Under the pieces are notes generated by a model. The model was not told the DNA's origin, ran no database searches, and saw nothing but the letters and a program-made list of their open reading frames with translations. Shown here piece by piece: positions 823 to 23,568 of a DNA stretch of 59,544 nucleotides. Positions within the stretch are counted from its first letter, which is position 1. Each line of letters begins with the position of its first letter. Made by a program: the position numbers and the translations under genes. The stretch comes from Acidimicrobiia bacterium. GTDB lineage: Bacteria; Actinomycetota; Acidimicrobiia; Acidimicrobiales; Bin134. Where the stretch lies: positions 1 to 59,544 of the forward strand of contig VYEX01000039.1 of assembly GCA_009842675.1 (NCBI GenBank). The letters are read 5' to 3'.

Positions 823-1428
823 TTTACGGCGGACACTACATATGAATCCCGTGTCAGTCGATGTGTGACTTGGGACGAACTAGGAATAGACGAAGACACA
901 TTTTGGCGATACGCAAGCTTCCTTGGCAACAAACCATATCTTCAGAGTCCAAACTTCTCAGGTTGGGTGTTACCGCAAGAATGGGATGCAACGGTTTCTT
1001 CGAGAAATTCACGGGATTGGATCGAATTACCGTATATTGGCGAGAAGTTATGTTGCGATATTATCGGGACAAGTGCAGGCTACCTTGCATTGACCGAGCC
1101 ATATCTTGCAGGCTATAACCCACTGTGGAGCGGAACACAGAGAATGTTCTTTTCTCCAGACGGATACGAGTGGAAGCCAATTGAAACTCCAGATATAACA
1201 CATACGCAGTGGCACACTGACCACGATGGCACTCCCTTCGTGTTCATCTGGTCCATTCATAATCTCGGAGACAGCGTTCTTGTATCTGGGAATTGGTTTG
1301 CTGACTATTATTCGAGCCCTGTTGAACCGGCAATGTGGATCATTGATCCAGACGGAACCAATTGGCGGGAGATCGACCCAGCCGAGCACCCCGACTTGTC
1401 TAGGTACGTACGTCGGTACGAAGGCTAG
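823..1428 (+). pseudogene. second part of the interrupted propeller-like protein
   Basis: It continues in the same frame as 1-822 after the TGA at 820-822. The first start codon after the stop is GTG 865, which would give a 187-residue protein, but the frame is already coding-like between 823 and 864. It contains another propeller-type strand (SPDGYEW near 1155-1173) and a related one near its end (DPDGTNW). Base composition is as AT-rich as the first half. The TAG stop (1426-1428) lies in a CTAG palindrome that also provides the stop of the convergent P450 gene (1425-1427), and the change in base composition falls at this point. Alternatives are a separately translated short protein or a sequencing error at 820-822. 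Confidence 0.5.
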
Positions 1429-2615
1429 CGCCAGGTGATGTGGGCGGGGAGGTCGCTGTAGGCGAGGTTGGCGGGGAGAGGAGGGTACTCGAAGCCCGCC
1501 ACGGGGGTTAGGGCGGCCACTCGGTCCAGCAGGGTCTCGATGGCGGTGACTCCTTCGAGGCGGGCCAGGCTGGCCCCGGGGCAGACGTGGGCGCCGGCGC
1601 CGAAGGCCACATGGTTGAGCGGGTCGGGTCGGTCGAGCCGGAAGTCCTCGGGGTCGTCGTATTGCTCCTCGTCCCGATTGGCGGACGCCAAGCCCACCTC
1701 CACCCAGTCGCCCTGCTTCATGTCCACCCCGCCCAAGGCGGTGTCCTTCAGGCACCGCCGGGCCACTCGTGGGGCAGGCGAGTCGTGGCGCAGGGATTCT
1801 TCGACGAAGACCGGGATCAGCTCTCGGTCGGCTTCCAAGGCAGCCCAGGTGTCGGGCTCGACAATGAGCCGGTGCATGGAGTGGGCCAGCAGCCCCCGGG
1901 TGGTGTGAACCCCGCCCAGCACCATGGTCTGGAGCTGGTGGGCGATCACCGTGTCGCTGAGGGGCTCGCCTTCGATTTCGGCGTCCAAGAAAACCCTGTA
2001 GGTGTGTGAGGTGGGTTCGTCGGCCAACCGTTCCTGGGCCACCAAGTCCTTCAGGTAGCCGGTGATGGGCGGGCCGTCGGGGGCGTACTGGGGGCACACC
2101 GCCCGGAACATCACCGAGCCGTCCGACGACCACACCTTCAGGTTGTCGGCCCCGCCTTCGGGCAGGCCGATGATGTGGGCGATCACCTCGCAGGGGATGG
2201 GCACGGCGTAGTCGGCGTGTAGGTCGGCAGGGCCCTCGCCAGACAGGGCGTCAAGCAGCCGCTCGCAGGTCTCCCGCACGAACGGTTGGATTCTCATGGT
2301 GCGGTGGGGCCCCAGCGCCGAGTTGTACAGCCGGCGGATCTGCCCGTGGACCGGCTCGTCGATCTCAGGAAGGAACAGCTGCTCTTGGGGCACTTCCTCC
2401 ACGCCACCGAGCCCGGTGCCCGGCGTCATGTCGGAGCCGTAGGTGTCTACCGCGTACAGCAGTTCGTCGGCCTCTTGGCGACGGGTCAGGTAGTAGCCCA
2501 GCGGGGTCTTGGCCACCGGCCCCTGCTGGCGCAGCTCGGCCAAATGGTCGAAGGGCAGGCCGGTTTCGAAGTACTCAGGATTGTGGGGGTCGAACGCAGG
2601 GAGGGTGTCGGTCAT
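1425..2615 (-). CDS. cytochrome P450
   Basis: Soluble bacterial cytochrome P450 of 396 residues from the ATG at 2615 (MTDTLPAFDP). An upstream in-frame start at 2654 would overlap the preceding SDR, so the shorter start is chosen. Seen: I-helix GGVHTTRG, K-helix ESLR, and the haem loop FGAGAHVCPGASLARLE with the cysteine thiolate near residue 345. The I-helix acid of the usual (D/E)-T pair is replaced by His, with the threonines kept. It is the last gene of a leftward operon after a flavin monooxygenase and an SDR (14 nt after the SDR stop). Substrate unknown; the flanking Baeyer-Villiger-type enzyme and SDR suggest sequential oxidation of an alicyclic or terpenoid compound. A redox partner is not encoded nearby. 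Confidence 0.92.
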   Translation of the reverse strand: MTDTLPAFDPHNPEYFETGLPFDHLAELRQQGPVAKTPLGYYLTRRQEADELLYAVDTYGSDMTPGTGLGGVEEVPQEQLFLPEIDEPVHGQIRRLYNSALGPHRTMRIQPFVRETCERLLDALSGEGPADLHADYAVPIPCEVIAHIIGLPEGGADNLKVWSSDGSVMFRAVCPQYAPDGPPITGYLKDLVAQERLADEPTSHTYRVFLDAEIEGEPLSDTVIAHQLQTMVLGGVHTTRGLLAHSMHRLIVEPDTWAALEADRELIPVFVEESLRHDSPAPRVARRCLKDTALGGVDMKQGDWVEVGLASANRDEEQYDDPEDFRLDRPDPLNHVAFGAGAHVCPGASLARLEGVTAIETLLDRVAALTPVAGFEYPPLPANLAYSDLPAHITWR

Positions 2616-2629
2616 GGCTCTGCCGATCC

Positions 2630-3403
2630 CTATTCCTCGAACGATTCCCGCCACGGACCGGCCAGGTGCCCGCCGTCGATCACAAACTGGGCACCGGTGA
2701 CGTAGCTGGCCTCATCGCTGGCCAAGAACAGGGCCAGCGAGGCGATCTCGTGGGGCTCGCCCATGCGTTTGATGGGTTGCATGTCCATGAGCCGGTTGAG
2801 ACGGCCCAGCGTCTCAGGCGGTGCCTCTTGCACCATGGGGCTGTTGATCACTCCGGGGTGGATGGAGTTGACCCGCACCCCCAGCGGCCCCAGCTCGATG
2901 GCCGCCGAGCGGGTCATGCCCGTGACCGCGAACTTGCTGCCTGAGTAGCTGGTCATGCCCAGCACACCGACGATGCCGTCGATGGAGGAGATGTTCACAA
3001 TGGCACCGTTGCCGGTGGCCACCAGCGCGGCCTTGGCTGCCCGCATCCCCAAGTACACGCCGTGGAGGTTGATGTCGATCATCTCGTGGTGGGTCTTCAG
3101 GTCTAGACCCTTCAGCGTGCCGAACGCGCCGATACCGGCGTTGTTCACCAAGATGTCCAACTTGCCGAACCGCTCCACGGTGGCGGCTACTGCGGCTTCC
3201 CAGTCGTCTTCCCGGGTGACGTCGAGTTGCTGATAGAAGGCGTCGGGCCCCAGCTCGGCGGCCAGCTGTTCCCCGAGCACGTCCCGCAGGTCGGTGATGG
3301 CCACTTTGGCCCCCTCAGCCACAAACCGGCGGGCCTCCGCCTCACCTTGGCCCCGTGCGCTGCCGGTAATTAGCGCCACCTTTCCTTCCAACCTTCCGCT
3401 CAT
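2630..3403 (-). CDS. SDR family oxidoreductase (3alpha/20beta-hydroxysteroid dehydrogenase-like)
   Basis: Classical short-chain dehydrogenase of 257 residues, expected to be a cytosolic NAD(H)-dependent alcohol/ketone oxidoreductase. Seen: the cofactor loop TGSARGQG near residues 14-21, NNAG in the central sheet, catalytic NISS and the YSGSK pair, and the C-terminal motif GGHLAGPW. A good ribosome site (GGAGG) precedes the ATG at 3403. It sits 49 nt after the flavin monooxygenase and 14 nt before the P450, so the three are probably one transcript. Its closest relative by eye in this window is the SDR at 9661-10446 (shared ISSIDG and S-Y-x-x-SK-x-AV segments), which belongs to the neighbouring unit controlled by the same DNA element. 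Confidence 0.93.
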   Translation of the reverse strand: MSGRLEGKVALITGSARGQGEAEARRFVAEGAKVAITDLRDVLGEQLAAELGPDAFYQQLDVTREDDWEAAVAATVERFGKLDILVNNAGIGAFGTLKGLDLKTHHEMIDINLHGVYLGMRAAKAALVATGNGAIVNISSIDGIVGVLGMTSYSGSKFAVTGMTRSAAIELGPLGVRVNSIHPGVINSPMVQEAPPETLGRLNRLMDMQPIKRMGEPHEIASLALFLASDEASYVTGAQFVIDGGHLAGPWRESFEE

Positions 3404-3452: not shown

Positions 3453-4946
3453 TCAGTCCGCAGGCAAAGAAGCCACCTCGTAGGCGTCTTCGTCGATGGT
3501 GGCGATCTGGTCCTTGAAGGTGGTCATGTTGTGGGGCCACTGGGTGACGATTCGGCCGCTGGGGCTGCGGTAGTAGCCGTTGCAGCTGGCGTTCCAGGGC
3601 CTGATTTCGGAGATGCCCTCCTGCACCCACTGGTTGTAGTCGGCCATGGGCTCGGCTTTGACGTCCACCCAGGCCAGGCGCTGCTCGGCCAGGCGTTGGA
3701 TGTGGGCCAGGGCGTAGTCCACCTGGTACTCGATCATGGTGATGATCGAGCCGTTGTTGGTGTTGGGGCCGTACAGCATGAACAGGTTGGGGAACCCGGT
3801 GGTGGTTATGCCCATGTAGGCGGTGGCCCCGTCGTCCCAGGCATCGTTGATGTGCAGCCCGCCTCGGCCGATCACCTCGATGGCCGACAGGTACTTGGTA
3901 GTGGAGAAACCGGTGGCCAGCACCATGGTGTCCATCACGTGCTCGGTGCCGTCGGTGGTGAGGACACCCTTGGGGGTGATGCGCTCGATGGCCTCGGTCA
4001 CCAGCTCCACATTCGAGCGGTTGTAGGTGGTGAAGTACTCGTTGTGGAACAGCGGCCGCTTGCATCCCCACATGTGGGTGGGGGTGAGCTTGGCCCGCAG
4101 CTCGGGATCGGCCACCGCCCCAAGGGCCTGTAGGCCGATGGCTTCCATCTCGGCCTGCCTCTCGGGGTCTTTGAAGGCCATGCCGGTGTCCACCTGCTCG
4201 AACAACTCGTCGCGGCGAGCCACCACGATGCTGGGATCGGCCTGGCGAGCGGCCATCTCCTCGGGGGTATAGGGGTCGTCCTCTTTGGGCAGCACCCAGT
4301 TGGCGGTGCGCTGAAATACGTAGAGCTGGCCCACCTCCAAGGCGATCTCGGGCACTAGCTGCACCGCGCTGGCCGCGGAGCCGATCACTCCGACGGTTTC
4401 GCCGGCCAGATTGTGTTCCCAGTCCCACCGGGCCGAGTGGATGGTCTTGCCCTCGAACGAACCCAAGCCTTCGATCTGGGGCAGGGGAACGTCGTTGAAC
4501 ATGCCCAGCGCGCTGATCACCACATCGGCGGTCACCTCGGCGCCGGATTCAGTGGTCAGGGTCCAAGTGGCGCTGTCCTCGTCCCACCGGGCCGAGATCA
4601 CGGCATCGTTGAAGCGACAGTGGGGGAGCACCCCGTACTTCTCAGCGCAATACTCCATGTAGCGCAATATCTCGGGCTGGCGGGCGTACGGACGGGTCCA
4701 CTCGGTGTTCACTTCGAAGGAGAACGAGTAGAGCTCCGACTGGATGTCGCAAGCGCAGCCGGGGTAGCGGTTGTGGTACCAGGTGCCGCCCACACCGCTG
4801 CCTTTCTCCAGCACGGTGAAGTTCTCAAACCCCGACTGGCGGAGCCGGATGGCGGCGCACAAACCGCCTGGCCCGGCCCCGATGATGGCGATCCGCAGAT
4901 CCCGCTCCCCGTTGCCGCTGGTTGCTCCTGCTGACTGTGTGCTCAT
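3453..4946 (-). CDS. flavin-containing / Baeyer-Villiger-type monooxygenase
   Basis: FAD- and NADPH-dependent monooxygenase, about 497 residues from ATG 4946. A GTG two codons upstream (4952) is possible, but AAGGGG is better spaced for the ATG. Seen: N-terminal FAD loop GAGPGG (residues 23-28), a GGTWYHNRYPG segment typical of the family, the BVMO fingerprint F-x-G-x-x-x-H-x-x-x-W as FEGKTIHSARW, an NADPH loop GSAASA, and the ATGF segment. Known BVMOs insert oxygen next to a ketone to make esters or lactones. It is first in the operon with an SDR and a P450, a combination able to take an alkane/alcohol through ketone to ester. The start lies 29 nt from the conserved element at 4975-5010. Confidence 0.93.
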   Translation of the reverse strand: MSTQSAGATSGNGERDLRIAIIGAGPGGLCAAIRLRQSGFENFTVLEKGSGVGGTWYHNRYPGCACDIQSELYSFSFEVNTEWTRPYARQPEILRYMEYCAEKYGVLPHCRFNDAVISARWDEDSATWTLTTESGAEVTADVVISALGMFNDVPLPQIEGLGSFEGKTIHSARWDWEHNLAGETVGVIGSAASAVQLVPEIALEVGQLYVFQRTANWVLPKEDDPYTPEEMAARQADPSIVVARRDELFEQVDTGMAFKDPERQAEMEAIGLQALGAVADPELRAKLTPTHMWGCKRPLFHNEYFTTYNRSNVELVTEAIERITPKGVLTTDGTEHVMDTMVLATGFSTTKYLSAIEVIGRGGLHINDAWDDGATAYMGITTTGFPNLFMLYGPNTNNGSIITMIEYQVDYALAHIQRLAEQRLAWVDVKAEPMADYNQWVQEGISEIRPWNASCNGYYRSPSGRIVTQWPHNMTTFKDQIATIDEDAYEVASLPAD

Positions 4947-4974
4947 GTCCACCCCTTGCGTGCGTCCGGAAAAC

Positions 4975-5112: not shown

Positions 5113-7140
5113 ATGACGGTTACCGAAAATGACGCGACCGCCACCCAGTTGACGCTGCTTGACGAGCTTGTCCTGACGCTTCTGAACGAGGAGAGCGGCT
5201 ATTTTCGCCAGGTTCCCGGCTGGAATCTGAACTGCGCCGTCGTGGGGGCCGCGCTCGCCGAGCTGTCGCTCATCTATCGCATCGACACCGACATGGAGTC
5301 CTTGATCCTTCTGGATCAGACCAGGACGGGCGACCCTTGTCTCGATCCGATTCTCTCCGAGATTGTCAAAGAGCCGGTTCAGCGCAACGCCCAATATTGG
5401 ATTGAGCGGCTCGCTCCGAAAGCAGACTCGATCATCGATACGACGCTGGCTCGCTTGGTCGACATGAAGATCCTGCAACACCACGAAGGGGATTTCTGGT
5501 CTCTGGCTCAAGGGGCCTGGAAGTCGGGATTCCACACCAGCTCCGAAGTGGGCACTGCCGTCGAGTTCGTGAAGACCCGCATCAGCAGGGCGATATTCAA
5601 CAACGAGATTCCCGGCCCTAGAGACGTCGTCATCATCTGTCTCATCGACACCTGTGACGTCTTGCGCTACATCTTCGAACTTGATGAGGAGTCGGAGGCG
5701 CGCGTCGAGCAGATCTGCAAGATGGACCTGATCGGTCGTTCCATCGCCGATGCGGTCAGCGAGAACATCGCCGTGTCGTTGTTCCAGCGAACCGCACTGA
5801 CCAGGGCGATTCCCCGGCTCAAGCTGCGCAAGGTGATGCGCAGCAAGCAACTCCGCAAGGGCAACGTGCCCGCATTCATGGCTGAACTCCACAAGGAGTA
5901 CGGCCCGGTATTCGACGTCAAGGTGCCATTCCAGGGTCGCATGATCTTTTTGGCCGGGCCCGAGACCAATCATTGGGTACACCGCCATGGCCGCATGCAC
6001 CTGCGAGCCAGGGACTATCTGGAGGACTTCGAGAAGGTCTACGGCGGGGTGGGGCTGCTGCCCGCTCTCGACGGTGCCGATCACTTCCGGTATCGGAAGT
6101 CCATTCAGCCGGGCTATGCCCGCGGGAGGCTGGAAGAACAGCTCGACATGGTCTTCTCCAAAGCTCGGGAGAACCTGGCGACTTGGAACGTTGGCGAAGC
6201 GGACATTGCGGTGACCATGTGCCGGAATCTGATCAACTCGGAGCTGTCACCGCTGACCATTGGCATTGACTCAAATGACGTATCCGATGATATGCACAAG
6301 TTCAAGGAGCGGGCGCTCAAGACTCACCTGGCCAAGACCCTCCCCAAGTTCATGCTGCACACTCCCTCGATGAGGCGCCGGGCGAAGCTCATCGACGACG
6401 TAGTGGATCGGGTTTTGCGGGTCCACACGCCCGCCCAGCGTGCGGGATGTCCCCGGGATCTTGCCGATGAGCTGTTGAATATGCACGGCAGTGATCGGCA
6501 GTTCCTGCCAGAGTCGAACCTGCGATTCGTGCTCTCGGCACCGTTGATCGCCAGCATGTACGTGGGCGATCAACTCTCCTTCATTGCCTACGCCATGCTG
6601 GCGCAGCCGGAATACCTCGAGAAGATCCGCGACGAGGCCGATGCCCTGTTCTCCAACGGCGATCCTGACCGCGAGACGCTCACCGGGCCGGCGATCGACG
6701 TCACTCGACGCTTCATCATGGAGTGCCTGCGCATGTATCCCATCGTCCCGATGTCGGTGCGCAACGTGATGAACAAGTGTGTGGTCGAGGGCTACGAACT
6801 GCCGGAAGGGGCTCGGATCTTCATCGCCCAAACGGCAACGCACTACATGAGCGATCACTTCCCCGATCCCTTCACGTTCGACATCGGCCGCTACGAGGCA
6901 CCCCGCAAAGAGCACATCGGCTCCACCTACGCCCCCTACGGGCTGGGGACGCACACCTGCCTGGGCATCCGCTGGACGGAACTTCAGTTGGCCATCAACC
7001 TGCTGATGATGGTGCATTACTACGATCTGGAGATTGCCCCTAAGAAGTACAAGCTCAAGATCAGCCCGTTCCCGTCGATGTCGCCAAACAAGAAGCTCAA
7101 GTTCCGGGTCGCCGGGAAGCGCCACGAACTGCCCGTCTGA
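5113..7140 (+). CDS. GPP34 (GOLPH3-like) domain fused to cytochrome P450
   Basis: A 675-residue fusion. Residues ~12-225 resemble the GPP34/GOLPH3 family (LLDELVLTLLNEESG opening, then alternating helices with a DP-x-LDPIL segment); the eukaryotic member binds PI4P at Golgi membranes, and actinobacterial copies are largely uncharacterised. Residues ~236-675 are a P450: ExxR as ECLR (537-540) and the haem loop YGLGTHTCLG with Cys616. In the I-helix, the stretch that should carry the Gly-x-(Asp/Glu)-Thr oxygen-activation motif reads IASMYV (479-484), so the acid-alcohol pair is absent. This hints at a non-monooxygenase P450 (isomerase, dehydratase or peroxygenase-like) or a peripheral-membrane enzyme on a lipid. 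It converges on the FAD oxidoreductase; sampled G+C is lower than in flanking genes. Confidence 0.85.
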   Translation: MTVTENDATATQLTLLDELVLTLLNEESGYFRQVPGWNLNCAVVGAALAELSLIYRIDTDMESLILLDQTRTGDPCLDPILSEIVKEPVQRNAQYWIERLAPKADSIIDTTLARLVDMKILQHHEGDFWSLAQGAWKSGFHTSSEVGTAVEFVKTRISRAIFNNEIPGPRDVVIICLIDTCDVLRYIFELDEESEARVEQICKMDLIGRSIADAVSENIAVSLFQRTALTRAIPRLKLRKVMRSKQLRKGNVPAFMAELHKEYGPVFDVKVPFQGRMIFLAGPETNHWVHRHGRMHLRARDYLEDFEKVYGGVGLLPALDGADHFRYRKSIQPGYARGRLEEQLDMVFSKARENLATWNVGEADIAVTMCRNLINSELSPLTIGIDSNDVSDDMHKFKERALKTHLAKTLPKFMLHTPSMRRRAKLIDDVVDRVLRVHTPAQRAGCPRDLADELLNMHGSDRQFLPESNLRFVLSAPLIASMYVGDQLSFIAYAMLAQPEYLEKIRDEADALFSNGDPDRETLTGPAIDVTRRFIMECLRMYPIVPMSVRNVMNKCVVEGYELPEGARIFIAQTATHYMSDHFPDPFTFDIGRYEAPRKEHIGSTYAPYGLGTHTCLGIRWTELQLAINLLMMVHYYDLEIAPKKYKLKISPFPSMSPNKKLKFRVAGKRHELPV

Positions 7141-7173: not shown

Positions 7174-8562
7174 CTAGCGCCTCGCCCTCTTGAACCGCCA
7201 GCCGTACATGATGCTCCCGTAGTAGTTGAAGGTCCGTCTGGCGTCGGGGTCGTTGAACGGGTAACCCGCCCCCATCTGCCGGGCCGCGGCCATTCCGGTG
7301 ATGAAGCAGGTTTCCTGGCTGTTGATCAGGGTGTGGGCACCGCAGTGCCACGTACGCCGCTTGCCCTGGATGAAGCGGAACATGTTGACGATCAGGGTGA
7401 CGTGACGCACGTCGTGGACGACGTGTTGGAACCACCACTTCTTGACGATCTTGTCTTCATCGATCGGGCTGATCGCGTTGTAAGTCACCAGACAGGGCTT
7501 GTCAGACCGGCTCACCCATGGTTGCTGGTTGTGCATGATGTAGGTGATCTCGTAGTTGTCGGGTCGGGCGCCGTACTGAGCGATGTGGTTGCTGCGGGTG
7601 GTCAGGGGCTTGGCCTCGTTGTCGGGGAGAACCGAGGAGTCGAAGTGAACGACGGTGTGGTTGTGGAGTTCGCTCTCGTAGCGAATCGACGAGAGCAGAC
7701 AGCGCTCGAGGGCGGTGGGCTTGTCCAGCATCATCAGCGTCTGGTTGGCGTTGCACGCGAACACGACTTCGTCGAACTCTTCCCGGACGCCATCTGCGTC
7801 AACCACCACAACACCGGACTTCGACCGGTACACCTTTTGAACCGGCCGGTTCAGGTAGATCTTGTCCCGAAAGCCGGCTGACAAGTGTTGGTATATGCGC
7901 TGCGTTCCCTGATCCCACGTCTGCATGGGCGTAGCCGACTCGATGTCGAAAAACTCCAGATACCGGGCGAATAGGGATGCCGGCATATCGAACACGTTCG
8001 TGGCCATGAGGAAGTTGACGAACATGGGCTTGAGGATCTTGTACCGGAAGTCGCCGGAGAACCCGCCCAGATTCAGCAGCGTGCCCATGCTGATGTAGTT
8101 GAATGGATTGAGGAAGTTCAGGAACTTCGACTGGGATCGGCTCAACCAGCCCACCCGTTGCACCCGCCGCAGGAGTCGTTGGAATTTGGCAATTTCCGCA
8201 TGCAGTTGCTGCCTGATTTCGGAGTCGAAATCGTGGGCGTAGATCTGTCCTGCGTACTTCACGCTGTAGCTGAACTTCGTGTCGATTCGCTCGATTCCAA
8301 ACTGCTCCATCAAAAGCAAGATGTGTTCATAGACGGAGGGGATCAAGACAGTGACCGACATGTCGAAGGGAATAGACCCGCCATCGTCCTGGGGCATGTC
8401 AACGGTGATCGCGTTGCCACCAAGCAGTTCCTGTGCTTCGTACAGTCGGAAATCGAAGCGGTCCGGCTGTTGATGCAGGGCCCACGCGGCCCCCAGCCCT
8501 GAGACCCCACCGCCCACTATGGCGATTTTGCGCGGCGGTTTCTGCGTCTTGCCGTTTGTCAT
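7174..8562 (-). CDS. NAD/FAD-binding oxidoreductase (amine-oxidase fold, COG2907-like)
   Basis: A 462-residue flavoprotein. Seen: N-terminal dinucleotide fold IVGGGVSGLGAAWAL followed by an acidic strand end (LYEAQE), a long helical substrate region, and the C-terminal FAD segment AHTLINSQETCFITG. The pattern matches predicted FAD-binding proteins of the amine oxidase/phytoene desaturase superfamily, which desaturate or isomerise lipids and isoprenoids; some relatives sit next to fatty-acid-modifying enzymes. It starts 12 nt after the Rieske oxygenase stop, so the two are co-transcribed, and ends 33 nt from the convergent GPP34-P450. Sampled G+C is about 57-60%, below the 65-70% of the flanks. 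The precise reaction is unknown. Confidence 0.8.
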   Translation of the reverse strand: MTNGKTQKPPRKIAIVGGGVSGLGAAWALHQQPDRFDFRLYEAQELLGGNAITVDMPQDDGGSIPFDMSVTVLIPSVYEHILLLMEQFGIERIDTKFSYSVKYAGQIYAHDFDSEIRQQLHAEIAKFQRLLRRVQRVGWLSRSQSKFLNFLNPFNYISMGTLLNLGGFSGDFRYKILKPMFVNFLMATNVFDMPASLFARYLEFFDIESATPMQTWDQGTQRIYQHLSAGFRDKIYLNRPVQKVYRSKSGVVVVDADGVREEFDEVVFACNANQTLMMLDKPTALERCLLSSIRYESELHNHTVVHFDSSVLPDNEAKPLTTRSNHIAQYGARPDNYEITYIMHNQQPWVSRSDKPCLVTYNAISPIDEDKIVKKWWFQHVVHDVRHVTLIVNMFRFIQGKRRTWHCGAHTLINSQETCFITGMAAARQMGAGYPFNDPDARRTFNYYGSIMYGWRFKRARR

Positions 8563-8574
8563 TGCCAGCTATCC

Positions 8575-9606
8575 CTAGCTGTCGCTGGTCGCCGGGTCGG
8601 GATAGAACTGGGCGCAGTACGAGCGGAATTGCATGATCTCACCGTCGGCACGCGATAGGCGGGGGCGAGACCGGTATTGCTTGTTGCTCCAGATCGGTAT
8701 GTCCTGGAGGACGTCTTGCTTTTCGAAAGCCGCCATGACTTTGTTGATGATGGGAGCCCGCAGCCTCACAGGAAGAAATCCCAGTCCGGCAATCTTGCGA
8801 CCCGGTTTGCGAAGTTCTCCCGTCTGCGACACCACCGACAGATCAATCATCTCATCGTCTACGGGTGTCGCCAGAATCCAGAGACGCGTGTCCAGGCCAA
8901 TGGTGCGCTCGCGCACTTCCACAAAGGAGTACCCCAGCCCATAGATGAGAGTGTTGGCGGCGATGTCGAGCTTCAGTTTGGCGACTTTGGCGACTTTTCG
9001 GGTCCGGGCAAAGTCAAAGCGGCTCCGGAAATGGGCTCCGTCCACCGAAACCGGTTCGACGCGAGTCACGCTGTCGTAGCCATGGACATGCTGAAGGTGG
9101 GTCAGGTCCACCGAATTCTCGGTTGTCTCCTGGGGATGGCCGGCAAAGCGAGAAGTCCAGATATGAAGGCTGCTCCAGCCAGTTTGGTCTGGCTCTTCGG
9201 CGGGCAGGTGCCATTGCGGCGGTCGTCCCCCGATACCCCACCAGGCGAAGATCAGGCCGGCTATTTCACGGCTCTCAAATGTTCGCAACCGCGCCGCCTT
9301 CGGTGGGGGTCCGAAGGGAGTGGCCACGCACTGGCCATCGGCTTGGTACTCGAATCCATGGAACGGACAGACGAGCCGGCCGTCGCGAACACATCCTCCC
9401 ACTTCGGGCCCCAGATCGGCGCCCAGATGCGGGCAATAGGCCTCAGCGACGCAGACGCTCCCGCTCTCATCGCACCAAACGATGATGTTCTCGCCCATCC
9501 AGCCCCTTTTGATGAGCTTGTCCTTCATGAGGGACTGGCGGCTGGCGACGAAGTACCACCCCTCGGGAAACGGGGAGGGCAGCGGGTCGTTCGCTGTTGC
9601 CGTCAT
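8575..9606 (-). CDS. Rieske [2Fe-2S] non-haem iron oxygenase (KshA/Neverland-like)
   Basis: Terminal oxygenase of 343 residues from ATG 9606; an earlier in-frame ATG at 9630 falls inside the conserved promoter element, so it is less likely. Seen: Rieske ligands C58-P-H60 and C80-P-F-H83, then the mononuclear-iron region ENSVDLTHLQHVHG with its Asp/His ligands, and a C-terminal IWSNKQYRSRP...QFYP segment reminiscent of the DAF-36/Neverland cholesterol 7-desaturases and of KshA-type steroid hydroxylases. These assignments are by eye. It is first gene of the two-gene unit with the FAD oxidoreductase. It needs an electron-transfer reductase, not encoded here. A sterol- or triterpenoid-like substrate is a reasonable inference. 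Confidence 0.85.
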   Translation of the reverse strand: MTATANDPLPSPFPEGWYFVASRQSLMKDKLIKRGWMGENIIVWCDESGSVCVAEAYCPHLGADLGPEVGGCVRDGRLVCPFHGFEYQADGQCVATPFGPPPKAARLRTFESREIAGLIFAWWGIGGRPPQWHLPAEEPDQTGWSSLHIWTSRFAGHPQETTENSVDLTHLQHVHGYDSVTRVEPVSVDGAHFRSRFDFARTRKVAKVAKLKLDIAANTLIYGLGYSFVEVRERTIGLDTRLWILATPVDDEMIDLSVVSQTGELRKPGRKIAGLGFLPVRLRAPIINKVMAAFEKQDVLQDIPIWSNKQYRSRPRLSRADGEIMQFRSYCAQFYPDPATSDS

Positions 9607-9619
9607 ATCGCTCAGAAAA

Positions 9620-9655
9620 GCTACCCTCATAGCCGCTGTTGTTAGAAAACGGAGA
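9620..9655. promoter_or_regulatory. conserved 36-bp element, copy B (divergent promoter)
   Basis: Second copy of the element at 4975-5010, between the leftward Rieske unit (ATG 9606) and the rightward SDR (ATG 9661). GCTACCCT, GCCGC and GTTAGAAAACG are retained at identical spacing. On the minus strand it presents GGGTAGCTT, a TANNNT-type -10 candidate whose transcript would have only a very short leader before ATG 9606. The SDR ribosome site GGAGAAG directly abuts its right edge. Confidence 0.6.
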
Positions 9656-9660
9656 AGAGC

Positions 9661-10446
9661 ATGGGACGTCTGGACAACAAGGTCGCGCTCGTCTCGGGGG
9701 GCGCTCGGGGCATGGGACAGTCACACTGCCGAGTGTTCACCGCTGAAGGGGCCAAGGTGATGGTGGCCGACATCCTCGACGACGAGGGTGCCGCAGTGGT
9801 CGCCGACATCGGGTCGAATGCGGTGTACCAGCACTTGGACGTGACCAGCGAGGAGGATTGGGACGCGGCGATAGATGCGGTGATGGAGACCTTCGGCCGC
9901 CTCGACGTGCTGGTGAACAACGCCGGTATCGCCGAGCCATCCCCGCTAGCCGACCTGAGTTTGGATAGCTATCGCCGGGTCACCGAGGTGAACCAGACCG
10001 GCGTGTTCCTGGGCATGCGAGCCGCAGTAAGGCCCATGACCGAGTCCGGCGGCGGGTCGATCATCAACATTTCTTCCATCGACGGGCAGGTCGGCATGGA
10101 CAACCTCACCTCCTACATCGCCAGCAAGTGGGCGGTTCGGGGAATGACCAAGACTGCGGCCATGGAGCTGGCCCCGCTGGGCATCCGAGTGAACTCCATC
10201 CACCCCGGCTTCATCCTCACCCACATGGGTTCCAATGCCGAGGTGACTCCCGAGGAGGTACACGGGCGCTTGGAGGTCTATTCGGCCCGGATGGCCCCCA
10301 TGGGTCGGGCCGGAGTGCCCGAGGAAATCTCCCGGCTGGCGTTGTTCCTGGCCTCCGACGAGAGCTCGTATTCCACCGGGTCGGAGTTCGTGTCCGACGG
10401 CGGCTTCACCGCGGGCTATCCCAACCCAGGGGTCAGTCTCCCCTGA
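9661..10446 (+). CDS. SDR family oxidoreductase (3alpha/20beta-HSD-like)
   Basis: Classical SDR of 261 residues with the cofactor loop GGARGMGQ, NNAG, NISSIDG and the catalytic SYIASK pair. Preceded by GGAGAAG at good distance from ATG 9661. Transcribed away from the Rieske/FAD unit from the same conserved control region, so it is probably part of the same pathway. It resembles the SDR at 2630-3403, including the SIHPG segment after the active site; two similar SDRs in one regulon suggests two alcohol/ketone steps or stereospecific interconversion. NAD preference is suggested by the acidic residue (Asp) at the end of the second strand (VMVADI). Confidence 0.93.
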   Translation: MGRLDNKVALVSGGARGMGQSHCRVFTAEGAKVMVADILDDEGAAVVADIGSNAVYQHLDVTSEEDWDAAIDAVMETFGRLDVLVNNAGIAEPSPLADLSLDSYRRVTEVNQTGVFLGMRAAVRPMTESGGGSIINISSIDGQVGMDNLTSYIASKWAVRGMTKTAAMELAPLGIRVNSIHPGFILTHMGSNAEVTPEEVHGRLEVYSARMAPMGRAGVPEEISRLALFLASDESSYSTGSEFVSDGGFTAGYPNPGVSLP

Positions 10447-16803: not shown

Positions 16804-19695
16804 CTAGCCGTCGCTGATGGCGATGGCCCGCTCGTCGGTGCCGAGGTAGCTGGCGATCACTGAGGGGTCGTTGCGCACCTCGGAGGGAGTTCCCTCGGCG
16901 ATCACCTTGCCAGCCTCAAGGCAGTACACCCGGTCGCTGATGCTCATGATGAGGGGCATGTCGTGTTCGATGATCAACATGGCCGCGTCCAGTTCCCGGC
17001 GGATGTTGACGATGAGCGGTCCGAATGCCTCGGTCTCCCGCTGGGCCACCCCGGCGGTGGGTTCGTCGAGGCATAGCACCCGGGTGCCCAGGGCCAGCAG
17101 CCCAGTGATTTCGACGATGCGCCGGGTCCCGGTGGACAGGTCGCTGATATAGGAATCGGCGTAGCGCCCCAGCCCCAGGTAGTCGATCAGCTCGTCGGCC
17201 TCGGCCCGACGCCGCCGTTCTAAGGCAAATGTGTGGGGGAGGTGAAGGGCGGTGCTCAACAGTGGTGTGCGGCCCCGAGCCTCCAAGGCCACCTGCACAG
17301 TTTCTCGCACCGACAGCTCCGGGAACAGCGCCGCGGTCTGGAAGGTGCGCCCCAGGCCGGCCCGGGCTCTGCGAGGGGCAGGGAACCGGGTGATATCGGT
17401 CCCGAGCAGCTCCACCCGGCCCGTAGACGGCACGTAGCCTCCCACCGCATTCATGAACGTGGACTTTCCGGCGCCGTTGGTGCCGATAAGGCCCACAATC
17501 TCGTCGGGATGGACCAGCACAGTGGCCTTCGACACCGCCTGCACGCCGCCAAACCGCACACTTATGTCGTGTCCGGCCAGCATGGGATCGGTGGCGGGCC
17601 GAGGATCGTCAGGCCGAGTCAGGCTGGTGGGAGCGGACTGGACGGTTTTGCCGCCGGGGTCGGGCCCCAGGCGCCGCTCGGCCAAGCCGATGAGAGCGTT
17701 GCGTGCGCTGTAGCCGATCTGAATGAGCCCGCCCGGGAAGTACATGAGCACCAGCAGCAGCCCGATGCTGGAAGAGAAGAGGGCAACGGTTTCCGCGTTG
17801 TTGAATAGGTTGGGTAGGCCATAGACCCAAATCGCCCCCAACACCGCGCCAACCGATGAGCCCAGACCCCCGATGACCACCATGCCCACAACTTGTAGCG
17901 AGTGCTCCACCTGGAAGAACCGCTCGCTGATCGGGACGTTCTGCACCAGTCCGGCCAGCATTGCTCCTCCCAGCCCGGCGATGCCCCCGGCCAACGCGAA
18001 CGACGAGAGTTTCGAGCGCACCGGCCCCACCGTGTAGCCCGAGGCCGAGTCGGCGTTGTCGCGCACCGCGATGATGCTGCGGCCCACCCCCGATCGACGC
18101 AGTCGGCTGACGATGATCACCGCGATCAACAAGAAAGCCAGGCACACGTAGTAGTAGGCCTTTTGCGACTTCAGGTCGAGACCGAACAGCTCGCCCCGGC
18201 GGAACGACACTGACGATGTGTTGCCGCCAGTGAAGAACGGTCGGCGATACAGGTACTGCTGGGCGGCCAGCGCGAACACGAAGGTGGTCACCGCCAGATA
18301 GAGGCCGCGAACTCGTAGCGACCCGACCCCGATAACCGCGGCGACCAGAGCGGAGAACAGTGTGGCAAGCGGAATGGCCACCATGAACGGAATGCCCCCG
18401 GTCTCGAATTGGACGTCGAAGAAGTCGTACGACAAAGCGTCGCCGGGCAAGAAGCCGGTGCCCACCGTGAAGTCCATGGACAACCCCCGTTTGAGGCCGG
18501 CCGCGAATAGGGCCCCCATGCCGGCGAAGGTCATCTGGGCCAGCGAGAGCTGGCCGGCCCAGCCGGTGATGATGGTGACCGAAAGCCCGCATACCGCAAA
18601 GCACAGCACTGTGGCGTACAGCAGCTGGCGGGACGGCAGGTTGGAGATGCCGGGGAGCTGCACCAGCACAATGCCGAGCGCCAACAACACGCCCAACGAG
18701 ATCTTGGACAAGTGTCGCAGCCACCACACCTCGCGCAACCGCTCCGGTATGGCTCGCACCTTGGGGGCGAAGGAGAAGACTCCAGTTTCGCCTTGGCTGC
18801 GGCTTTGGAAGTACACGGCCACCAGCACAGCCAAGAAGATGACGAAGTCGATTAGGCCGGTTTCGGTGAAGAAGTTGAACCGGAACAGAGCGTCGAGGAA
18901 CCCGATCAGCATCCCGCCCACCATGGCCCGGGGGAATGAGACCATACCGGCCAGCACCGCGGCCACCATTGCCTTACCCAGCGTCTGCGGGCCCAGGTTG
19001 GACAACCCCGCTATCTGTCCGGTCGAGCCCGACAGCATGATCATCGACAACGAGGCCAACATCCCGGCCATTATCCAAACGAAGGTGGACACGGTCTTGG
19101 GGTTGATCCCCGACAGGCGGGAGAGATCGGGGTTGTTGGCTGAGGCCGACACCGACTTGCCGAATGAGGTTCGGTTCATGAACCAGCCCAACAGCAGGGC
19201 CAGTACTGGGACCGCGATGAGGATGATGAGCTGCGGACCGCGCACCCTGATCTCGGTGAACCAGACGTCTTCCCACACCGAGCCGACAAACACCGGATAT
19301 TTCTGGCCGGCGGCTTCGATGTCGGGAAGCTGGGAAATCACCAGCTGGGCCAGCTGGGCAATGCCCACTGTGGCCACCAGCACGATCACCCGGGGAGAGT
19401 TGAACAGCCTGCGGATCACAGTCAGCTCCACCGCGGCGGCGAACAAAACCCCCAGCGCCAATGAGAGCGCCAGCGCCAGCCAGAATCCCCAGCCGTAGTT
19501 CAGCACCAGAAGCGCCATCATCGAGGCGGAGATGATGCCCATGTTGCCCACCGCGAAATTGATGACCCGGGTGGATCGGTAGATCAGCACAATCCCAATG
19601 GCCACCAGTCCGGTGACCAGGCCATTGACCACCCCGTTGAACGCCAATTGCTGGGTGATCCAGGTCCCGACCACGGAAGCGGAGGCGATGTCCAT
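16804..19695 (-). CDS. fused branched-chain-type ABC transporter LivH-LivM-LivG (module 1)
   Basis: One 963-residue polypeptide: LivH-like permease (~1-310, opening with an FNGVVNGLVTGLVAIG-type helix), LivM-like permease (~340-665, with GWAGQLSLAQMTFAGMGA and GGLGSSVGAVLGA), and LivG-like ATPase (~690-963). ATPase motifs: Walker A GTNGAGKST, signature LSTGTRRI (variant of LSGGQ), Walker B VLCLDEP, and the His switch IIEHD. Known relatives import branched-chain amino acids, amides or aromatic acids; the substrate here is unknown. The ATG overlaps the stop of the upstream MFS-LivF gene (TGATG), so the two are translationally coupled and together supply both permeases and both ATPases. It converges on the flavoprotein at 15671-16792. 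Confidence 0.92.
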   Translation of the reverse strand: MDIASASVVGTWITQQLAFNGVVNGLVTGLVAIGIVLIYRSTRVINFAVGNMGIISASMMALLVLNYGWGFWLALALSLALGVLFAAAVELTVIRRLFNSPRVIVLVATVGIAQLAQLVISQLPDIEAAGQKYPVFVGSVWEDVWFTEIRVRGPQLIILIAVPVLALLLGWFMNRTSFGKSVSASANNPDLSRLSGINPKTVSTFVWIMAGMLASLSMIMLSGSTGQIAGLSNLGPQTLGKAMVAAVLAGMVSFPRAMVGGMLIGFLDALFRFNFFTETGLIDFVIFLAVLVAVYFQSRSQGETGVFSFAPKVRAIPERLREVWWLRHLSKISLGVLLALGIVLVQLPGISNLPSRQLLYATVLCFAVCGLSVTIITGWAGQLSLAQMTFAGMGALFAAGLKRGLSMDFTVGTGFLPGDALSYDFFDVQFETGGIPFMVAIPLATLFSALVAAVIGVGSLRVRGLYLAVTTFVFALAAQQYLYRRPFFTGGNTSSVSFRRGELFGLDLKSQKAYYYVCLAFLLIAVIIVSRLRRSGVGRSIIAVRDNADSASGYTVGPVRSKLSSFALAGGIAGLGGAMLAGLVQNVPISERFFQVEHSLQVVGMVVIGGLGSSVGAVLGAIWVYGLPNLFNNAETVALFSSSIGLLLVLMYFPGGLIQIGYSARNALIGLAERRLGPDPGGKTVQSAPTSLTRPDDPRPATDPMLAGHDISVRFGGVQAVSKATVLVHPDEIVGLIGTNGAGKSTFMNAVGGYVPSTGRVELLGTDITRFPAPRRARAGLGRTFQTAALFPELSVRETVQVALEARGRTPLLSTALHLPHTFALERRRRAEADELIDYLGLGRYADSYISDLSTGTRRIVEITGLLALGTRVLCLDEPTAGVAQRETEAFGPLIVNIRRELDAAMLIIEHDMPLIMSISDRVYCLEAGKVIAEGTPSEVRNDPSVIASYLGTDERAIAISDG

Positions 19696-21896
19696 CAGCC
19701 GCCCTCGGTGCCCAGGAACACCGCCCGGGCCAGGTCGTCTCGTTCGGCTAGCTCTTGGGCCGGGCCTTCGAAGCGCACTTGCCCCTTCTCCAAGAACACG
19801 GCCCGATCAGCGATAGCCAGCGCCACATTCAACGACTGCTCCACGATGATCATGGTCTGGCCTTGGTCCTTGAGCTCCTCGACCGTCTCCAACAGCGACT
19901 GCACCACAACTGGGGCCAAGCCCAGCGACAGCTCGTCGATCATCAACACCTCGGGTTCGTGCAGCATCACCCGGGCCAAAGCCAGCATTTGCTGCTGGCC
20001 GCCGGAAAGATTGCCGGCTCGCTCATTGGTCCGTCTGCCAAGGTCGGGGAACATTTCGAGCACCTTCTCGATGCGCCGGTCTCGGTCGCTGGTATCCCTG
20101 CGATAGGCGTAGGCCCCCATGAGGAGGTTGTCGCGAATTGAGAGGTCGCTCCACACCCCGGCCCCGCCGGGCAGCATGTGCAGCCCCATGGCCGCTCGCT
20201 GTTCGGGAGTGGCGTAGGTGATGGTCTGGCCGTGCAGGCGCACCACCCCCCGCTCCGGGGTGACCAGTCCGGTGATCACCTTGAGCGCAGTGGACTTGCC
20301 GGCGCCGTTGGTGCCCAACAGGGCCAGGGTTTCCTGCTTGCGCACCTCGAATCCGAGATCGAACAGCACCTGCACCTGTCCGTAGCTGAAGTCCACATGG
20401 GCCACCTGGATGGCGGGCATGTCTTCGGGGTCGGTCTCGGCCTGACGGCGTTCTTCGTCTTGTTCTTCCCTCAGCTCGCCAACCACTAGAGAGAGGTCGC
20501 GCCGCAGCCGACTAGCCCCTCGGAGCACGAAATAGGCCCCGATCGGCATGGCACCTGCGGTGATGATGGTGATGGCGGTCTGCTCGCCGAGTTCGTTCTG
20601 GAGGAAGCCGGCGATGATGCTGCCCCCCACGCCGCCCACCATGACCATGAAGAAGGTCAAGAAGGCGGTGCCCATGCCCCGCAGCCGATAGGGGAATACC
20701 GCTTGGATGGCGGGCTGCACCATGGCGAAAGCCCCGCCCAGGAAGGTGGAGTTGATGGCGGAGAGAATCATGAACAGCGCCAGGTTGGGCATGGCGTACT
20801 GGATGGGTACCAGAACGCCTATGGGCAGCAAGAGGATGCCAATGAGCCGCACCGCCCGATCGGGGTCCTTTCGGAAGGTGGCGTCGAACCGGCGCCCGAC
20901 GAACGGCAGGAACACCAATAGGCCGATCCCCGCCGGTGCCACCGCCAGCCCGCGCTCCAGGGCATCGAGTTCGAACTCCTCCTCTAGGAAGAACGACTGG
21001 ATCGAGCCCGCTGGGAACAGGGCGAAGCCCATGGCCGCGAAGGCGATGGTCATATTGCGGATGGTGTCGATGTTCCAGATGCGGGTGAAGGCGGCTTCCA
21101 CCGAAATCGGCATCTTGTTGTCCTGTTTGAGGCCGGCGCCCAGCACATGCTTCTGTTCCCATTGGCCCCGGGGTGGCTCCCTCAAGAAAAAGGCCAAGAA
21201 GGCCAGGGCCGCGGTGGGCAGACCGAGAAGGTAGAACGCCCAGCGCCAGCCGTCATCGCCGCCAACCCACACTGCGATTCCCCCAGCCAAAACCGGGCTG
21301 ATGGCCGAAAAGATGCGCCCCACTCCGGCGTTGGTGGCGTACATGCGGCCTCGGGTCTGAAGCGGGTAGGTGTCGGCCAGCATGCTGGGGTGCACGGTGA
21401 TGGTGTTGGCCTTGGACATTCCGGCGAAGAACCGCATGAAGAAGAACATGAGGGCATTCACCGCTGCCCCCGACAGGGCGCTGAATGCGGCAAACGCCCC
21501 GCTGGCGATGCCCACGATGGGGCCGCGCCGGAAGCGGTCGGCCAGCCAGCCCATTGGCCCGGCCCCCAGCACGAAGAACATGAGCGACGCCGTGCTGATG
21601 GCAGTAACGGTTCCGTCGCTTACCCCGAAGCTCCTGCCGATGTCGGGTCCCAGGATGGCCACCGCGCTGTTCTCCAGCTCGTCGAGGCTGTTCAGCGCCA
21701 ACAAGACGACGAAGGTCTGAAAGCCCCCTTTGCGCAGGCCCTCTCTGAGCGTCGTCTGTTCGCCGCCCACACCGGGCAACAGGTCGTCAGGAAAAAGGAC
21801 CTCAGCCTTTTGGGCGTCCCGCCGAGCGGCCTCCCCTTCCAGCACCGTGGTGGCCAGCGCGTCGATGGACTCGCTTTGAGATGGCTGCTCTTCCAA
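19695..21896 (-). CDS. MFS transporter fused to LivF-type ABC ATPase (module 1)
   Basis: About 733 residues. N-terminal ~450 residues are a major facilitator with roughly 12 hydrophobic segments and a loop GWLADRFRRGP (MFS motif A); the C-terminal ~240 are a LivF-type ATPase with Walker A GTNGAGKST, signature LSGGQQQ, Walker B VLMIDELSLGL and the EQSLN segment. The longest frame begins at ATG 22049, inside the divergent sulfatase; alignment with the paralogue at 39629 and a GGGGGGAG ribosome-site-like run favour the TTG at 21896. A secondary transporter joined to the nucleotide-binding subunit of a Liv importer is an unusual architecture; the partner LivHMG is the next gene. Confidence 0.85.
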   Translation of the reverse strand: MEEQPSQSESIDALATTVLEGEAARRDAQKAEVLFPDDLLPGVGGEQTTLREGLRKGGFQTFVVLLALNSLDELENSAVAILGPDIGRSFGVSDGTVTAISTASLMFFVLGAGPMGWLADRFRRGPIVGIASGAFAAFSALSGAAVNALMFFFMRFFAGMSKANTITVHPSMLADTYPLQTRGRMYATNAGVGRIFSAISPVLAGGIAVWVGGDDGWRWAFYLLGLPTAALAFLAFFLREPPRGQWEQKHVLGAGLKQDNKMPISVEAAFTRIWNIDTIRNMTIAFAAMGFALFPAGSIQSFFLEEEFELDALERGLAVAPAGIGLLVFLPFVGRRFDATFRKDPDRAVRLIGILLLPIGVLVPIQYAMPNLALFMILSAINSTFLGGAFAMVQPAIQAVFPYRLRGMGTAFLTFFMVMVGGVGGSIIAGFLQNELGEQTAITIITAGAMPIGAYFVLRGASRLRRDLSLVVGELREEQDEERRQAETDPEDMPAIQVAHVDFSYGQVQVLFDLGFEVRKQETLALLGTNGAGKSTALKVITGLVTPERGVVRLHGQTITYATPEQRAAMGLHMLPGGAGVWSDLSIRDNLLMGAYAYRRDTSDRDRRIEKVLEMFPDLGRRTNERAGNLSGGQQQMLALARVMLHEPEVLMIDELSLGLAPVVVQSLLETVEELKDQGQTMIIVEQSLNVALAIADRAVFLEKGQVRFEGPAQELAERDDLARAVFLGTEGG

Positions 21897-21993
21897 GTCT
21901 CCCCCCAGTGCTACGAGGCCATTGCTCCCGTACTGGCCCAAGAGAGTAGCGTGAGAGGCCGGAAGAAAAGCCAGATACAGGGCAGGGGGGCAG

Positions 21994-23568
21994 ATGAGCG
22001 CACCGTCGAACGTCGCAGTAGTTCTGCTGGATTCGTTGAATCGGCACATGCTGGGGAGCTACGGCGGCACCGAGTTCGAGACGCCGAACCTCGACCGGTT
22101 CGCCGCTGAGCAGGCCACTCGGTTCACCCGCCATGTGACGGGGTCGCTGCCGTGCATGCCGGCCCGCCACGACATTTTGTGCGGGGCGCTGGACTTCTTG
22201 TGGAAGCCGTGGGGTTCGATCGAGCTGTGGGAGGAGCCCATCACTCGAGTGCTGCGCCACGGCGGGGTGACCACTGCGCTGTTTACCGACCATCCCCATC
22301 TGTTTGAAACCGGAGGCGAGAACTACCACACCGATTTCCACTGCTGGGATTATCTGCGGGGTCACGAGGGCGACCCATGGCGCACCTTCTACGACCCCTC
22401 TTGGGCCGGCACCCCGACCATGCCGGCCCGAAAAGGCGGCTGGTGGTGGTCGAAGATGTGGGGCCTTGAGGAAATCGACCGGGGCTATGACCGGTCCCGC
22501 ACGTTCTTCCGTTCGGAGGAGGACTACCCCGGGCCCAAGACCATGAGCGCGGCGGCGCAATTCTTGGCTGAGGCCACCCCTCACCACGACCAGTGGTTCA
22601 TGTTCGTGGACGAGTTCGATCCCCATGAACCGTTCGACACGCCTGCGCCATGGGCCGGCCGATATTTCGACGAGACCTGGGACGAGGAGTGGATCATCTG
22701 GCCGCCCTATGTCGACGGTGGCATCGCATCCGGGAACCTCTCGGAGAAGGAGGGTCGCCACGTTAGGGCCAACTACGGGGCCAAGCTGTCGATGATCGAC
22801 CACTGGTTCGGGCAGATACTGGACCGGTTCGACGAGCAGGGCCTATGGGACGACACCGCGTTGATTGTGTGTACCGACCATGGCCACTACCTGGGCGACG
22901 TGCGGGAGGGGCGCGATATCTGGGGCAAGCCCGGGGTGCCCCAATACGAGCCTCTGGGCCACACGCCGCTGTTGATCTCGTGGCCGGGCACGCCCGGCGG
23001 GGGAACCTGCGAGGCGCTGACCACCAACGTGGACATCTTTGCCACCGTCGCCGATATCTTCGACGCCGAGGTGATGCAGACCACCCACGGCCGCTCTATG
23101 GCCCCGCTGCTGAGGGGCGAGGTCGACTCCATCCGAGAGTGGGCGCTGGGCGGGGTGTTCGGCGGCTGGGTCCAGGTCACCGACGGCCAGCACAAGTACG
23201 CCCGAGGGGCCACCGAGGACAACTTCCCGCTATCAATGTGGTCAAATCGCTGGTCCACCATGCCGTTTGGCGACATCGGCATGCCCGGCCTGCCTCCGCC
23301 CGACCACCGGGCCTGGCTCGACAGGATGCCGGGCTCGGAGGTTCCGGTGATCCGCCAACCCTATGAGCCCGGCGACACGCTGCCGCTGTGGGTAACGGTG
23401 AGTGCCAGCAACGACCGCCACTTCCTGTTCGACCTCGACCTCGATCCGAGCGAGCAGGAGAACCGCAGCAGCGAGTCATCAGCCGCTGAGATGGTTGATC
23501 TGCTCCACACTGCGCTCAACGAGGTGGACGCCCCCGATGAGCAATACGCTCGGCTGGGTCTCAAATGA
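21994..23568 (+). CDS. type I sulfatase
   Basis: A 524-residue alkaline-phosphatase-superfamily sulfatase. Seen: N-terminal metal-binding strand VVLLDSLNRHMLGSYG, the formylglycine motif C54-M-P-A-R, and the second metal site VCTDHGHYLGD. No signal peptide, so probably cytoplasmic, acting on imported sulfate esters. Cys54 must be oxidised to formylglycine by a separate enzyme. A G-rich ribosome site (GGGGGG) precedes ATG 21994. It is divergent from the MFS-LivF/LivHMG operon and followed after 40 nt by the binding lipoprotein, so uptake and desulfation of the same compound is plausible (inference). Sulfatase versus phosphodiesterase activity cannot be settled by sequence alone, but C-x-P-x-R favours sulfatase. 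Confidence 0.9.
   Translation: MSAPSNVAVVLLDSLNRHMLGSYGGTEFETPNLDRFAAEQATRFTRHVTGSLPCMPARHDILCGALDFLWKPWGSIELWEEPITRVLRHGGVTTALFTDHPHLFETGGENYHTDFHCWDYLRGHEGDPWRTFYDPSWAGTPTMPARKGGWWWSKMWGLEEIDRGYDRSRTFFRSEEDYPGPKTMSAAAQFLAEATPHHDQWFMFVDEFDPHEPFDTPAPWAGRYFDETWDEEWIIWPPYVDGGIASGNLSEKEGRHVRANYGAKLSMIDHWFGQILDRFDEQGLWDDTALIVCTDHGHYLGDVREGRDIWGKPGVPQYEPLGHTPLLISWPGTPGGGTCEALTTNVDIFATVADIFDAEVMQTTHGRSMAPLLRGEVDSIREWALGGVFGGWVQVTDGQHKYARGATEDNFPLSMWSNRWSTMPFGDIGMPGLPPPDHRAWLDRMPGSEVPVIRQPYEPGDTLPLWVTVSASNDRHFLFDLDLDPSEQENRSSESSAAEMVDLLHTALNEVDAPDEQYARLGLK

Follow-up and report, generated by a model that had tools for sequence, protein, structure and literature searches.

Our analysis revealed that a gene encoding a GPP34 (GOLPH3-like) domain fused to a cytochrome P450, carried by an acidimicrobial genome, is associated with sterol genes across bacterial phyla. 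This association is the main and new result of this work. It goes beyond the earlier note, made by reading the sequence alone: the unusual lipid enzyme proposed there is borne out, and the lipid concerned now appears to be specifically a sterol. From the gene context, an involvement of the fusion with sterols is very probable, and the protein probably catalyzes an unstudied step in bacterial sterol reshaping. As a whole, our reading, to which we give a probability of about 50%, is that the fusion would be a lipid-docked haem-thiolate enzyme acting on sterols within a conserved gene set, its usual O2 relay being replaced by another step.

Architecture of the fusion protein

The analyzed stretch of DNA (59,544 nucleotides, hereafter the window) carries an ORF that begins with ATG and encodes a protein of 675 aa; its antisense frame is interrupted by stops. 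The gene and its features are as follows:

5113..7140, + strand: GPP34-P450 fusion protein, 675 aa (ORF; 45 close homologues)
5155..5763, + strand: GPP34 (GOLPH3-like) domain, residues 15-217 (Pfam PF05719; GOLPH3 fold match)
5839..7098, + strand: cytochrome P450 domain, residues 243-662 (Pfam PF00067; CYP51 profile match; P450 fold matches)
6550..6570, + strand: I-helix A480-S-M-Y483-V-G485-D486 replacing the acid-Thr motif (alignments)
6721..6732, + strand: ExxR motif E537-C-L-R540 (alignment of homologues)
6928..6966, + strand: haem-binding loop YAPYGLGTHTCLG with the thiolate Cys616 (alignment of homologues)

Both domains match their Pfam profiles far above the cut-offs: GPP34 over residues 15-217 (96.3 bits for a cut-off of 29.1, E = 3.4e-27, positions 1-200 of a profile of 201) and p450 over residues 243-662 (123.4 bits for a cut-off of 22.8, E = 1.4e-35). 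Fold matches agree, so that the GPP34-P450 architecture put forward in the earlier note stands, GPP34 similarity being clear within residues 1-230. An assembly or frame artefact was rejected since some 45 sequences, drawn from many assemblies, share this architecture. Furthermore, the two-domain protein is also present in MAGs of Actinomycetota, Chloroflexota, Gemmatimonadota and Pseudomonadota, which argues against a chance association of the domains. The mean pairwise identity within the fusion family reaches 68% for the GPP34 part and 65% for the P450 part; the conservation of the GPP34 domain is therefore no lower than that of the P450. Our search of the open-access literature for GPP34 or GOLPH3 joined with a P450 retrieved no relevant paper, and the fusion supplies an enzymatic context for the bacterial GPP34 domain.

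The GPP34 part of the full-length AlphaFold model is confident and its best fold matches in the PDB are GOLPH3 structures (9qpq and 3kn1; for 9qpq_B, E = 1e-7 and TM = 0.67 by target length). In GOLPH3, Trp81, Arg90 and further Arg residues belong to the basic pocket that binds PI4P. In an alignment that reached the first half of GOLPH3, Trp81 aligns with the invariant Trp37 of the fusion, and the Arg90 position is occupied by Val, Ile, Ala or Thr, none of them basic. Several of the fusion-bearing bacteria are proteobacteria not known to produce phosphoinositides. By analogy with GOLPH3, the domain may serve as a docking module for a membrane or lipid surface. Another protein encoded by the window's genome consists of GPP34 only and shares 40% identity with the N-terminal part of the fusion. 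A stand-alone GPP34 gene on contig C37 of this genome (L071:7802-8473) lies among genes that were named by eye as thiolase-like, short-chain dehydrogenase and luciferase-like oxidoreductase genes.

A P450 domain with an intact haem site and an altered I-helix

The full-length model was not used for the P450 half, since its mean pLDDT of 55 was too poor. A P450-only model, obtained with other P450s added to the input, was usable (pLDDT 71, pTM 0.77) and matched solved P450s with Foldseek E-values down to 1.4e-14 and VIA Z of about 30-32 over 370-420 residues, which places the domain in the cytochrome P450 superfamily. The CYP51 of Methylococcus capsulatus is both the top Foldseek match (1.4e-14) and, among the CYP51s that are the closest solved P450s by sequence profile, the first one (158 bits, E = 2.4e-45). 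The best VIA matches, lying within about 1 Z of each other, include CYP170A1, CYP46A1 and CYP90B1.

The haem loop and ExxR motif had been described as intact from the sequence of the window, and they proved invariant wherever homologues cover them: Cys616 of the FxxGxxxCxG-type loop in 44 out of 44 homologues, E537 and R540 of the K-helix ExxR motif in all 45 close homologues. These data bear on the idea of a pseudoenzyme, in which the P450 part would bind haem but serve as a sterol carrier or as an activator of the methyltransferase, Rieske or flavin enzyme described below. Missing O2-activation residues and a fused lipid-binding-type domain would fit this idea, for which P450-derived glycosyltransferase activators provide a precedent (weak match to TIGR04515, 19 bits for a cut-off of 343). 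However, these activators have no working haem site, whereas Cys616, the ExxR motif and the haem loop are retained in every covering sequence of the fusion family, making a pseudoenzyme very unlikely.

The acid-Thr pair of the I-helix was previously proposed to be replaced by IASMYV at residues 479-484. Our analysis confirmed that it is missing there in all 45 close homologues, and neither the MAFFT nor the HMMER sequence alignments place such a pair elsewhere in the I-helix. Instead of the canonical monooxygenase motif (A/G)Gx(D/E)T, the fusion displays A-S-M-Y-V-G-D with a one-residue deletion, Tyr483 and Gly485 being found in 45/45 and Asp486 in 44/45 close homologues. Conserved anchors are separated by 34 residues in 43 of the 44 family members measured and by 35 in four divergent GPP34-P450s; likewise, the HMMER alignments to solved P450s open a one-residue gap in the I-helix. 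As judged from these alignments, the I-helix is shortened by one residue with respect to canonical relatives, the oxygen-groove region being devoid of both the pair and one residue, and the usual bulge of this helix is probably changed. Since the gap position differs between alignments (acid at Met482 and Thr at Tyr483 for HMMER, acid at Tyr483 and Thr at Val484 for MAFFT, the pair missing in both), the counterpart of the Thr is either Tyr483 or Val484. Among the divergent GPP34-P450s, L088 and L089 (about 30% identical) keep AGIDT, and L090 and L091 have SSDQ. Therefore, loss of the pair probably took place inside the GPP34-P450 family, which amounts to a natural experiment on the mechanism of P450s, some members keeping AGIDT and others having lost the pair and a helix residue. 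The Arg-Pro of CYP152 peroxygenases is also absent, with Met/Tyr or Tyr/Val at these positions, and the CypC NCBIfam model yields 21.9 bits for a cut-off of 600.

The missing pair and the deletion make a chemistry other than monooxygenation plausible for this P450, if somewhat short of an even chance. The lack of the pair is no proof of an isomerase, dehydratase or peroxygenase, since some P450s devoid of the I-helix Thr, such as P450eryF and P450cin, still hydroxylate. The fusion could thus hydroxylate or desaturate sterols in the ordinary O2-dependent way, with Tyr483, Asp486, a hydroxyl of the substrate or water taking the place of the acid-Thr relay and the GPP34 domain acting only as an anchor. 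The conservation of Asp486, one helical turn from Tyr483, and the presence of the sterol hydroxylases CYP46A1 and CYP90B1 among the nearest folds are consistent with such an enzyme. The deletion at the oxygen groove and the invariant bulky Tyr argue against it, as does the fact that no ferredoxin or reductase gene was recognised beside the fusion in the annotated loci. Overall, we consider an ordinary hydroxylase to be quite possible, although on the doubtful side.

Conserved partners and co-occurrence

The neighbouring genes in the window are:

1425..2615, - strand: separate P450 with a GGVHTT I-helix, genus-level neighbour (profile search, alignment)
2630..3403, - strand: short-chain dehydrogenase, genus-level neighbour (profile search)
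3453..4952, - strand: FMO/Baeyer-Villiger-type flavin monooxygenase, genus-level neighbour (profile search)
7174..8562, - strand: FAD amine-oxidase-family enzyme of the LkcE/polyunsaturated fatty acid isomerase (PAI) type, 462 aa (Pfam PF01593)
8575..9606, - strand: Rieske oxygenase of the KshA_C type, 343 aa, or 351 aa from the start at 9630 (Pfam PF00355, PF19298)
9661..10446, + strand: short-chain dehydrogenase, genus-level neighbour, near the fusion only in loci of close relatives (Pfam)

The nearest solved relatives of the FAD enzyme are LkcE (6f7l, 2e-32) and the PAI of P. acnes (2b9w, 9e-11), and that of the Rieske oxygenase is the 3-ketosteroid 9-alpha-hydroxylase KshA (5e-22). The flavin monooxygenase shows similarity to the NCBIfam model of neopentalenolactone D synthase, below its cut-off. 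Elsewhere in the window, two similar blocks (16804-22049 and 36756-41872), with sulfatases nearby, each encode a protein joining a branched-chain-type ABC permease to an ATPase and a second one in which an MFS domain is fused to an ABC ATPase, the latter fusion looking unusual.

Across phyla, the partners that stay with the fusion are the FAD enzyme, the Rieske oxygenase, a methyltransferase with a Sterol_MT_C domain (SMT) and an MMPL transporter that has a Pfam sterol-sensing match. The partners of L054 and L060 carry PF08498 (Sterol_MT_C) together with PF08241, which identifies them as sterol C-24 methyltransferases. All five genes lie within 8.2 kb in L085. In L062, from a gammaproteobacterium, about 11 kb contain the fusion, the MMPL and SMT genes, a squalene epoxidase-oxidosqualene cyclase fusion and a CYP51. 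The SMT gene adjoins the fusion in loci from Chloroflexi, Gemmatimonadales, Alpha- and Gammaproteobacteria and Acidimicrobiaceae. The genome of the window encodes two SMTs, both on other contigs, away from the fusion locus, one of them 72% identical to that of L054. In the window's genus, we do not count the MMPL transporter among the linked partners, since its homologues in the window's genome are only 31-34% identical.

Two kinds of SMTs were observed (L052-L064, L069, L082-L086, L092 and L093 versus L058, L062, L070 and L091): one with the usual region I (FYEFGWGxSFHF-like) and a divergent one of the FMVFGWGESLHF type, usually located beside the fusion; their substrate or position specificity may differ. 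Near the second SMT of the window's genome (L070:57-1082 and 2351-3121, contig C62), a membrane protein of the DUF1295/steroid 5-alpha-reductase-like kind is encoded, which could be a sterol reductase.

Co-occurrence was analyzed in 298 genomes of the order, 26 of which carry a full-length fusion. SMT was found in 23 genomes (22 of the 26 with the fusion versus one of the 272 others; Fisher 3e-28), the FAD enzyme in 20 (20 of 26 versus none; 4e-26) and the Rieske oxygenase in 23 (22 of 26 versus one; 3e-28), values that overstate independence because the genomes are related and share ancestry. When only the four carrying families are considered, the association with SMT has p = 0.003. The single-contig genome G176 carries the fusion, FAD and Rieske genes but no SMT; therefore, this core of three genes may be able to do without side-chain alkylation.

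Probable origin of the sterols

Matches to PF13249 fall into two groups, squalene-hopene cyclases with E of about 1e-106 and oxidosqualene cyclases with E of about 1e-45; the sequences that were read carry DxDDT in the former group and DCTAE in the latter. In the eight genomes of the window's genus that carry the fusion, neither an oxidosqualene-type cyclase nor a CYP51 was found, only a squalene-hopene cyclase; MAGs being incomplete, such absences call for caution, which is softened here by two genomes that are single contigs. De novo sterol synthesis by the window's organism was rejected: its PF13249 match is a DxDDT squalene-hopene cyclase located beside hopanoid-type genes, and no CYP51 was found in its genome. 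Therefore, in this genus, the gene set probably acts on sterols acquired externally. No PF13249 match was found in two other carrier groups, the five genomes of f59 and three of g35. One of these five f59 genomes, G100, nevertheless has a CYP51, which is also present in G302 and G304.

The CYP51s of L062, G302 and G304 argue against the fusion being itself a sterol 14-alpha-demethylase (CYP51) with an added domain, as its best profile and fold matches to the M. capsulatus enzyme might suggest. The true CYP51 that shares the L062 locus (GQHTS-type, best PDB match a CYP51 at 1.6e-98) is only about 21% identical to the fusion, too low for clear orthology, and the (G/A)GQHTS signature that it carries is absent from the fusion. 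Moreover, most carriers lack oxidosqualene cyclase and hence make no substrate for this step. The fusion as a CYP51 was therefore rejected as extremely improbable.

Squalene epoxidase and oxidosqualene cyclase fused into a single protein of about 1100 aa were observed in a gammaproteobacterium and in Acidimicrobiia (L062:9094-12489, - strand; L106:8202-11549, + strand; L107:2624-6004, + strand; L108:7829-11104, - strand), with a DCTAE motif. In L062 and L106, these proteins contain PF08491, PF13249 and PF13243, and L109 has separate neighbouring genes.

The use of external sterols could also reflect breakdown, the gene set importing and degrading the sterols of the host. The KshA-type Rieske oxygenase, the catabolic look of several neighbours in the window (HsaA-like, CoA-transferase, short-chain dehydrogenase and Baeyer-Villiger-type genes) and the absence of oxidosqualene cyclase and CYP51 from the carrier genus are in line with this. 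However, the catabolic-looking genes are kept only within the genus, whereas the partners conserved across phyla include a methyltransferase that builds side chains, and some carrier genomes contain sterol biosynthesis genes. Breakdown is thus unlikely to be the role of the set.

Distribution and possible transfer

A scan of 84,980 species genomes found close relatives of the fusion in Acidimicrobiia, two Chloroflexota lineages, Rhodobacteraceae/Boseongicola, Rhodospirillales, one gammaproteobacterium and one Gemmatimonadales MAG, with 56-66% identity to the window's protein between phyla. Among 346 genomes sampled from the phylum, only the window's own genome carries the fusion. In the midpoint-rooted tree of fusion proteins, the divergent members separate, and the sequences from Chloroflexota, Gemmatimonadota and Pseudomonadota fall in one family with the acidimicrobial ones, whose deepest forks lack resolution. 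This grouping across phyla fits horizontal transfer. The isolate-name prefixes SB, IRC, COS, RHO and Sva0996 suggest that the carriers are probably sponge symbionts; a study of sponge MAGs (PMC8163846) mentions such hosts.

Tandem or extra copies of the fusion, 75-83% identical to that of the window, were observed in L045, L046, L047, L048 and genome G282, and these second copies form their own clade in the tree. Two copies (L050:10001-12022 and L047:2824-4833) contain one in-frame stop each and are possible pseudogenes or assembly errors. A detached C-terminal fragment (L057:14012-14308, residues 577-675, 57% identity), located 2 kb from an intact gene, is a probable remnant.

Proposed function

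According to the reading that we favour, the fusion would be a haem-thiolate enzyme that modifies sterols while its own GPP34 domain holds it at a membrane or lipid surface. It would work with the flavoenzyme, the KshA-type Rieske oxygenase, the SMT and, in many lineages, the MMPL transporter. The substrate is presumably a sterol: in the window's genus, devoid of oxidosqualene cyclase and CYP51, it would probably be taken from the host or from neighbours, and in other carriers the set is located beside sterol biosynthesis genes. The P450 step could be a rearrangement, a dehydration or a peroxide-driven reaction, at a site that the Rieske and flavin enzymes would have made ready.

A bolder and rather improbable extension is that a horizontally shared cassette (GPP34-P450, LkcE/PAI-like flavoenzyme, KshA-like Rieske oxygenase, divergent SMT and sterol transporter) lets sponge symbionts rebuild the sterols of their host, the P450 being a new lipid-docked class of non-monooxygenase sterol enzymes. 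If so, the divergent SMT and the P450 together could supply missing steps in the chemistry of sponge sterols, for example those leading to unusual side chains that serve as fossil biomarkers.

Comparison with known systems

The closest known system is the CYP51-ferredoxin fusion of M. capsulatus (6mcw/7jj1), which resembles the window's protein by profile and fold, by its sterol context and by the joining of a P450 to a second domain. However, it has an AGQHTS-type I-helix and a C-terminal ferredoxin, whereas the window's protein has neither and carries an N-terminal GPP34 domain. Unlike bacterial CYP51s, the fusion can coexist with a true CYP51, as in L062. With GOLPH3/Vps74, it shares a full-length Pfam GPP34 match, the fold and an invariant Trp at the counterpart of Trp81, but it is bacterial, its GPP34 domain is covalently joined to an enzyme and the Arg90 counterpart is not basic.

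CYP74 (AOS/HPL), CYP8A1, CYP5A1 and CYP152 are P450s that keep the haem thiolate and have lost the usual O2-activation pair. The fusion is similar to them in both respects but differs by its S-M-Y-V-G-D motif and, from CYP152, by the lack of Arg-Pro. LkcE and the PAI of P. acnes are the closest solved relatives of the partner encoded at 7174-8562, with low similarity, and a sterol substrate for this partner is suggested by context only.

The sponge-symbiont clusters are comparable at the level of the gene set. In the parts of the two papers considered here, Brown et al. 2023 (PMC10070321) show in vitro that SMTs from symbiont metagenomes add alkyl groups to the side chains of sterols, with three of these enzymes reaching the 24-isopropyl level. 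Kelly et al. 2022 (PMC9531527) describe clusters of sterol genes from Ircinia symbionts of ten phyla, which show traces of transfer. As in the loci analyzed here, the SMTs and other sterol genes of these papers belong to bacteria, namely sponge-associated Acidimicrobiia, Dehalococcoidia, Gemmatimonadetes, Alpha- and Gammaproteobacteria, and horizontal transfer was proposed for them. They differ in that the genes described in these parts are of the erg/sdm type; the GPP34-P450/FAD/Rieske set was not found there, and the words P450 and Rieske are absent from the main text of PMC10070321. The same parts of PMC10070321 name unsolved enzymes of sponge sterol side chains and point out that bacterial contributions to sponge sterols bear on the reading of fossil steranes as evidence of early animals. 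Besides these known clusters, our analysis puts forward one defined set of genes, which is shared by several phyla, as a candidate in sponge sterol chemistry.
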